Position numbers and translations under genes: made by a program. Below, piece after piece: positions 67 to 1,367 of a stretch of DNA of 64,000 nucleotides. This DNA is from Marinitoga lauensis (lineage in GTDB: Bacteria > Thermotogota > Thermotogae > Petrotogales > Petrotogaceae). Numbering within the stretch: the first letter of the stretch is position 1; each line of letters opens with the position of its first letter. The stretch covers positions 62,001-126,000 of the forward strand of contig NZ_QHLX01000007.1 of assembly GCF_004135675.1 (NCBI RefSeq). The letters are read 5' to 3'. Below the pieces are notes generated by a model, which ran no database searches, had not been told where the DNA came from, and was given only the letters and a program-made list of their open reading frames with translations.

Positions 67-435
67 GTGAATATAAAATCAGAAGAGGAGATTTTTGAAT
101 TAACAAAAGAAATAGTGAAAGTATTGGATGAAAAAGATGGTATTGATATTAAGATTTTAAATATGAAAGAATCTCCATTATTAGTAGATTATTTTATTAT
201 TGCTACGGGTAATTCTGAAACGCATTTAAATGCTTTAAGAGATACAGTCGTAGAAAAATTTAAAGAAAAAGGTCACGAATTATTATATTATGATAAAGAT
301 AAAGGTTATGAATGGTTAATAATTGATGGTGGAAGTATAGTTGTTCATCTATTTACTGAAAATGCAAGGGATTTTTATGATTTAGAAGGTTTATGGAGTG
401 AAGTAGAGAGAATTAATATTGAGGAATTAAAATAA
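67..435 (+). CDS. rsfS: Ribosomal silencing factor RsfS (Iojap/DUF143 family)
   Basis: A 122-residue protein matching the whole RsfS fold. It has the family's central stretch LVDYFIIATGNSETHLNAL and the later segment YEWLIIDGGSIVVHLF, followed by the typical R-x-FYDLEGLW ending. RsfS binds ribosomal protein L14 on the free 50S subunit and blocks joining with 30S when nutrients are low. The start is GTG at 67, preceded by GGAGGTG at 53-59. The gene lies 15 bases after the preceding stop, so it is probably co-transcribed with that gene. It sits directly upstream of rpsB, and its own target, L14, is encoded at the other end of this window. Confidence 0.93.
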   Translation: MNIKSEEEIFELTKEIVKVLDEKDGIDIKILNMKESPLLVDYFIIATGNSETHLNALRDTVVEKFKEKGHELLYYDKDKGYEWLIIDGGSIVVHLFTENARDFYDLEGLWSEVERINIEELK

Positions 436-436
436 A

Positions 437-503
437 ACCTCACACACCGTTATGCAGTTTCCTCGGTGCCTGCAATAGGTCGGAAACGTAGGGCGGTGGA
501 GGT
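437..503 (+). promoter_or_regulatory. Structured leader RNA in front of rpsB
   Basis: The rsfS-rpsB gap is much richer in G and C than its surroundings and folds on paper. Bases 437-441 (ACCTC) and 445-449 (CACCG) pair with 494-498 (CGGTG) and 499-503 (GAGGT), a 10-pair outer helix with a 3-base bulge. Inside, TGCAG 453-457 can pair with CTGCA 470-474, and TTTCC 458-462 with GGAAA 482-486, which would make a pseudoknot. CACCG 445-449 could also pair with CGGTG 464-468 instead, giving a possible switch. The position directly ahead of rpsB suggests autoregulation by S2, but that is inference; I recognise no known riboswitch class. Confidence 0.55.
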
Positions 504-529
504 AAAAACCAAAAACTGGAGGTGTTGGT

Positions 530-1336
530 ATGTCAGTTATCAGTATGAAACAACTTTTAGAAGCAGGTGTTCACTTTGGGCATAGAACAAGAAGATGGAA
601 CCCAAAGATGAAACCATATATTTTTACAGAAAGAAAAGGTATTTACATTATTGATTTACAAAAATCTTTAAAAGCGGTAGAAGAAGCATATGAATTTGTT
701 AGAGATCAGGCAGCAGAAGGTAAAGTGATCTTATTTGTTGGAACGAAAAAACAGGCACAGCAAATTATTGCTGATGAAGCAAAAAGAGCAGGAGCATATT
801 ATGTAAATAACAGATGGTTGGGTGGATTATTAACAAACTTCCCAACAATCAAAAAAAGAATTAAAAAGTTAGAAGAATTAGATGAATTTGTAAATTCAGA
901 AGAATTTGAAAAATTACCTAAAAAAGAACAAAGTAAAATTAAAAAGATGTACGAAAAATTAGACAAAAACCTTGGTGGTTTAAGAGGAATGAAAAAAATC
1001 CCGGATTTATTATTCTTAATTGATCCAAGAAAAGAACAAATAGCTGTTGCAGAAGCAAATATGTTAGGTCTTCCTGTAATTGCATTGGTAGATACAAATT
1101 GTGATCCAGATCCAATAGATATTGTAATCCCTGGAAATGATGATGCTATTAGAGCAATAAAATTAATTACTTCAAAAATTGCAGATGCATATATTGAAGG
1201 TAGAGAAGGAAGAATGGGAGAAGAACCAGTTTCATCAGAATCTGAAGAAGAAGTTATAGATGCTGTTGAAGAAGTAACAAAAGCAAAAGTAGAAGCAGAA
1301 GAAAAATATGGAGAAGTCGTTGAGGAAGAAGAGTAA
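530..1336 (+). CDS. rpsB: 30S ribosomal protein S2
   Basis: The 268-residue protein starts [18 protein letters not shown] and carries the S2 hallmarks [33 protein letters not shown] and the C-terminal [15 protein letters not shown]2 binds the platform side of the 30S subunit. After about residue 228 there is a strongly acidic, Glu-rich tail, a common lineage-specific addition. ATG 530 follows GGAGGTG with good spacing and lies behind the folded leader. A hairpin with a T run follows the stop, so much transcription may end before miaB. Confidence 0.97.
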
Positions 1337-1347
1337 TTGAGAATAAT

Positions 1348-1367
1348 AAGGGGGTATCCCCTTTTTT
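1348..1367 (+). terminator. Rho-independent terminator after rpsB
   Basis: AAGGGG at 1348-1353 pairs with CCCCTT at 1358-1363 around a GTAT loop, followed by a T run to 1367. It lies 10 bases after the rpsB stop and 26 bases before the miaB start, so it may act as a partial terminator within the operon. Confidence 0.75.

Follow-up and report, generated by a model that had tools for sequence, protein, structure and literature searches.

A putative S2-responsive leader of the t44 / rpsB-motif class upstream of rpsB in Marinitoga lauensis and other Thermotogota

Introduction

The closest described systems are the RNA leaders that precede rpsB, the gene encoding ribosomal protein S2. According to the accessible text of PMC10931766, S2 of Escherichia coli represses its own mRNA through this leader, helped by S1; the same text calls the mechanism unclear, since the ribosome binding site lies outside the operator. 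The E. coli record annotates T44 (tff) just 5' of rpsB, and the Rfam family t44 (RF00127) is therefore the rpsB leader. The rpsB motif (Meyer 2009) combines a long stem P1 and a short stem P3 with a pseudoknot that links the junction to a 3' extension following P1. It is described in Alpha-, Gamma-, Delta- and Epsilonproteobacteria, a few Betaproteobacteria, Cyanobacteria, and some Firmicutes (PMC2704228, accessible part). In the main text of that paper, supplementary alignment aside, the accessible part does not name Thermotogota, Aquificota or Synergistota. The accessible part of PMC3766115, which covers Thermotogales, reports L20 and L21 leaders there and mentions neither rpsB nor t44. We found no report of an S2 leader in Thermotogota in the literature searched, even if Fu 2013 may list Thermotogota. 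Here, we analyse the leader upstream of rpsB in a 64,000-nucleotide (64 kb) stretch of the Marinitoga lauensis genome, called the window hereafter.

Results

A GC-rich folded leader between rsfS and rpsB

The segment 437-503 lies between the stop codon of rsfS (435) and the start of rpsB (530), and the core of the leader is directly 5' of the latter (Table 1). The gene tsf, which follows rpsB in E. coli, is not joined to it here: it lies on the opposite strand at a distance of about 24 kb (G000:C17:37841-38272). The GC content of 437-503 is 0.567, against 0.289 for the window. Windows of 67 nt with such a high GC content form only three clusters in the 64 kb; apart from the one at this leader, they fall on two tRNA genes, which bears out the GC-rich leader noted in a first, sequence-only reading of this DNA. 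The folding energy computed for the region 420-530 is -32.9 kcal/mol (z -2.63; 3 of 200 shuffles were equally good). The pairs of the lowest-energy fold in the leader are 437-441/499-503, 445-451/492-498, 453-455/488-490, 457-462/482-487, and 468-472/476-480. This fold also pairs ACCAA (508-512) with UUGGU (525-529), enclosing the Shine-Dalgarno site and competing with the pseudoknot described below; judged by eye, the full pairing is not kept in six relatives of the genus.

Table 1. Features of the rpsB leader and of its flanking genes (positions in the window).
Feature	Position	Strand	Evidence or remark
rsfS, ribosomal silencing factor	67..435	+	PF02410, E 3e-29; end adjoins leader
Basal P1 extension, 5' strand ACCUC, pairs with 499-503	437..441	+	Genus-level; outside cross-phylum consensus
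Whole leader core	441..513	+	R1, 50.3 bits; R2, 57.8 bits (model includes the window leader); Rfam t44 spans 423-508
Conserved CACAC, start of leader core	441..445	+	Alignment A5
Helix P1, 5' strand, pairs with 492-498	445..451	+	Fold, genus comparison, covariation
Upper helix, 5' strand GUUUCC, pairs with 482-487	457..462	+	Fold, genus comparison
Predicted pseudoknot strand GGU before apical hairpin, pairs with 508-510	465..467	+	In the window by homology
Apical hairpin (P3 of Meyer 2009), 5' strand	468..472	+	Fold, covariation
Apical hairpin, 3' strand	476..480	+	Fold, covariation
Upper helix, 3' strand GGAAAC	482..487	+	Fold, genus comparison
Helix P1, 3' strand	492..498	+	Fold, covariation
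GGAGG at P1 foot, Shine-Dalgarno-like, 27 nt 5' of start codon	498..502	+	
Predicted pseudoknot strand ACC, 7 nt 5' of Shine-Dalgarno site	508..510	+	
Shine-Dalgarno site of rpsB, GGAGGUG	518..524	+	Read directly
rpsB, ribosomal protein S2	530..1336	+	PF00318, E 2.4e-98
Intrinsic-terminator-like hairpin directly 3' of rpsB	1348..1364	+	

The leader matches t44 below the Rfam cut-off

At the gathering thresholds, the Rfam search of the 64-kb window gave two tRNAs and nothing at the leader. The leader is missed because of its score: RF00127 aligns over its full length to 423-508 (E 6.9e-5), but at 29.8 bits it falls short of the 44 bits of the family, which is a database threshold and not a biological feature. 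RF01815 (rpsB) gives a weak full-length alignment at the same place (17.2 bits, E 0.13), far under its own cut-off of 40 bits, and its model is longer (132 positions versus 95).

We built two covariance models from relatives, whose E-values are rough (short calibration). R1 was made from 21 aligned Thermotogota leaders of other families and orders, none of them from the order of the window, and excludes the window leader; R2 includes it. R1 matches the leader core with an E-value of 4.5e-12, its sole match in the 64 kb. Over the 2.6-Mb genome it has one strong match, 5' of rpsB, and the runner-up has an E-value of 1.4. The same model recovers the leader of E. coli K-12 (34.6 bits, E 2.8e-9) in a match that overlaps the annotated T44 RNA. 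Homology was thus found in both directions, from t44 to the window and from R1 to E. coli.

The two leaders align over their full length with the same order of helices, share the blocks CACAC, GGUGCC, GGUC, GUGGAGG, and ACC, and are both directly 5' of rpsB. The long P1 capped by the P3 hairpin and the pseudoknot between junction and 3' extension are also those of the rpsB motif, while the extra stem P2 is absent in the window, as the accessible part of PMC2704228 describes for Firmicutes, Cyanobacteria, and most Gammaproteobacteria. On these alignments, we class the window leader as a divergent member of the t44 / rpsB-motif class, and not as the RNA of no catalogued class that the sequence-only reading had supposed. 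That reading had advised an Rfam search, which gives nothing at the leader at the gathering threshold and t44 below it, and had held that a hit to a different known RNA would speak against S2 control; a known RNA was indeed found, yet it is itself an S2 leader.

Stems are conserved and covary

The long interrupted stem has a basal part specific to the genus, in which A437-U503 pairs in 6 of 7 genus members and the remaining four pairs in 7 of 7. The outer helix of ten pairs predicted from the sequence was recovered as 437-441/499-503 plus 445-449/494-498 with a bulge at 442-444. Two of these ten pairs carry compensatory changes, seen for each pair in a single relative among the six from the genus. 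The helix ends 14 bases, and not 10 as first given, before the Shine-Dalgarno GGAGGUG. Across the genus alignment, 3 of 22 pairs have a compensatory change. The bulge overlaps the conserved CACAC at the start of the leader core: in alignment A5, 443 C and 444 A are present in 100 of 100 rows and 445 C in 97 of 100.

The stems covary strongly in a broader alignment of 57 leaders, made up of E. coli, L031, and 55 further named loci. There, 91.9% of the stem cells are paired, compared with 63.2% in shuffles, and both sides change in 19 of 19 pairs, a number that none of 500 shuffles reached. The covariation score is 0.710, compared with 0.203 in shuffles and at most 0.194 when partners were slid. 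In 88 Thermotogota leaders, 92.6% of the cells are paired versus 74.7% in shuffles (score 0.542 versus 0.196), and both sides change in 14 of 19 pairs, which 6 of 500 shuffles reached. Both alignments were fitted to the stems of the model, which favours the stems and not the pseudoknot. The stems thus covary and are kept in relatives, which was the check proposed from the sequence.

Several inner details of that prediction did not survive. Outside the window, only G003 among six genus relatives retains all five pairs of the hairpin 453-457/470-474 (one of them as G-U), and this hairpin was rejected as not conserved in the genus. All seven genus members retain the pairing 458-462/482-486, as part of a nested helix and not as the pseudoknot it had been taken for.

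A conserved pseudoknot before the ribosome binding site

A conserved pseudoknot does exist elsewhere, between GGU 465-467 and ACC 508-510, next to the apical hairpin 468-472/476-480 that had also been missed. The two strands can pair in the window, joining the junction to the extension 3' of P1. The 51 leaders analysed, of which only L031 belongs to the Thermotogota set, exclude the 6 of 57 that lack an aligned apical G. At least three anchored Watson-Crick pairs are possible in 50 of the 51, the aligned 3' columns being unused. When the 3' segments were exchanged between leaders, none of 20,000 permutations was as good (observed 176, mean 149.8, sd 4.5; the test ignores kinship, and the set contains near-identical leaders). 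Of the 14 leaders whose first strand differs from GGU, 13 have a matching partner, compared with 47% for exchanged segments.

In Thermotogota, at least three pseudoknot pairs are possible in 88 of 88 leaders, with nearly invariant strands. The window pseudoknot has 3 bp, whereas 5 bp are possible in E. coli; a fourth pair cannot form in 79 of the 86 rows from Thermotogota and in 31 of 53 rows of alignment A6. As the two G-C pairs hardly vary within Thermotogota, the covariation comes from other phyla. Since the strands are nearly invariant there and the fourth pair is mostly absent, the pseudoknot of the window itself is predicted by homology.

The leader is frequent in Thermotogota and extends to other phyla

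Of 93 Thermotogota rpsB loci, 88 are matched by R1, which was itself built from 21 of them. Among the five others (L126, L144, L154, L155, and L159), R2 gives weak matches in three (E 0.014 to 0.056) and none in L154 and L155, which carry a leader with an insert in the apical hairpin. In two relatives of the same order, G025 (L180:176-471) and G027 (L181), the rpsB leader has approximately 207 and 209 extra nt inside the apical hairpin relative to their sister G029, with an extended stem, and Rfam gave no match at E <= 1 on the G025 leader. The leaders of G094 and G099, at contig ends, are outside the leader alignments; the whole-genome search with R1 later matched that of G094. A -10-like hexamer is present within 40 nt upstream in 45 of 88 Thermotogota leaders (alignment A4; a loose pattern with no chance estimate), and some of them may therefore have their own promoter.

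The other named rpsB loci are the best 80 among the listed relatives of the window's S2 protein, and not a random sample. R1 matches 60 of 79 of them at E <= 1 and 55 of 79 at E <= 0.05, leaving 19 of 79 without match; these counts omit L031, a contig whose genome is also the source of the model sequence L023. With L031 the count at E <= 1 is 61 of 80 named loci, and each of these matches is in the sense orientation and directly 5' of rpsB. The searched loci were chosen around rpsB, and it is within them that every match is directly 5' of this gene.

The surveys of Thermotogota genomes with RF00127 and R1 used stricter filters, with which weak matches are lost. RF00127 exceeded its cut-off in 1 of 101 Thermotogota genomes, and reached E <= 0.001 in 31 of 101. 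Under stricter filters too, R1 reached E <= 0.001 in 80 of 103 genomes, with one match each (the 21 model sequences come from these genomes). At rpsB loci, t44 at its gathering threshold found the E. coli leader and 0 of the 16 other loci tried; at a permissive threshold, it found 10 of 17. Its absence at the gathering threshold in 16 of 16 loci means that negatives there say little. R2 matched 19 of 29 whole genomes, and 18 of these 19 have their leader in R2; among genomes outside R2, 1 of 11 matched, these having been chosen largely because R1 missed or barely matched them. For the phylum of one Synergistales genome, the count with R2 was 33 of 61 genomes, at least two of which had contributed to this model (matches were counted irrespective of rpsB position, and filters were stricter). 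Given the loci and genomes that R1 and R2 miss, the leader is either not universal or has diverged beyond these models.

Discussion

Homology in both directions, covarying stems, covariation of the pseudoknot in other phyla, a single strong copy in the genome, and the place before rpsB concur. We conclude that the region 437-513 is very probably the rpsB mRNA leader and a homologue of the S2-responsive t44 / rpsB motif of E. coli and other bacteria, through which S2 would repress its own translation. The binding of free S2 and the resulting repression of rpsB translation are likely by homology with E. coli. Autoregulation by S2, one of the two readings first offered, is thus the best supported, by homology with the E. 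coli leader.

We propose that the RNA forms P1 as a long stem with interruptions, capped by a short hairpin, and that GGU before this hairpin would pair with ACC after P1, placing a pseudoknot 7 nt 5' of the Shine-Dalgarno site. If the system works as in E. coli, S2 in excess over 30S subunits would leave free S2 (with S1 in E. coli) to bind the fold. Bound S2 would then block initiation at 518-530 and curb its own translation. The target in Marinitoga lauensis would be rpsB alone: with the gene alone, followed by a terminator-like hairpin, and tsf about 24 kb off, the feedback would act on S2 alone.

In Thermotogota, the homologous leader could instead mainly aid translation start or mRNA stability, for instance with GGAGG as a docking site for the 30S subunit, and exert little S2 feedback. 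The GGAGG at the foot of P1 is common (63 of 88 leaders have it in Thermotogota, and 39 of 57 in alignment A6), and the E. coli mechanism is called unclear, with the ribosome binding site outside the operator (PMC10931766, accessible text). We nevertheless find this unlikely, given that a complex fold conserved 5' of the S2 gene fits recognition by S2 and that E. coli S2 represses through the homologous leader (same accessible text). Within the genus of the window, the GGAGG can pair with ACCUC 437-441.

A switch, in which 445-449 would alternate between 494-498 and 464-468 and thereby break P1 and the pseudoknot, seems quite improbable. All seven genus members could form the alternative pairing, which was pointed out in the sequence-only reading. 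Across Thermotogota, however, only 11 of 88 leaders could form such a 5-bp pairing, and it is therefore at most a genus-level feature. A metabolite-sensing riboswitch would be in keeping with the compact pseudoknotted fold beside the ribosome binding site, and a ligand-sensing RNA had been the other reading first offered. This is very improbable and was rejected: the only strong copy in the genome is 5' of rpsB, with none before metabolic or transport genes, and the E. coli homologue responds to the S2 protein (PMC10931766, accessible text). A chance GC-rich hairpin, for which the only moderately unusual local folding could be cited (3 of 200 shuffles equally good), has a negligible probability and was rejected on cross-phylum homology and covariation. 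S2 autoregulation thus stands from the sequence-only reading as a whole, with the GC-rich folded leader and its outer helix, while the absence of a known class, the ligand, and several helix details were set aside.

The motif, its pseudoknot, and its spread over Proteobacteria, Cyanobacteria, and some Firmicutes are already described in the accessible part of PMC2704228. What this work adds is the extension of a known S2 leader to Thermotogota, together with evidence that the Rfam cut-off hides it: the leader is under-reported, with 1 of 101 genomes at the cut-off against 80 of 103 with R1.

We also advance, very tentatively and as a scenario we consider doubtful, that this RNA might be ancient. 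It may have stood before rpsB, mostly by vertical descent, since a very early bacterial ancestor, and been kept in Thermotogota, Aquificota, Synergistota, Bacillota, delta-type proteobacteria, and Pseudomonadota, hidden by the two partial models of Rfam. The GGAGG at the foot of P1 might then be a second Shine-Dalgarno-like docking site, locked closed by S2 with S1.

Thermotogota include many thermophiles. The leader and its protein make a small RNA-protein pair from this group that structural studies of mRNA recognition by S2 could use.
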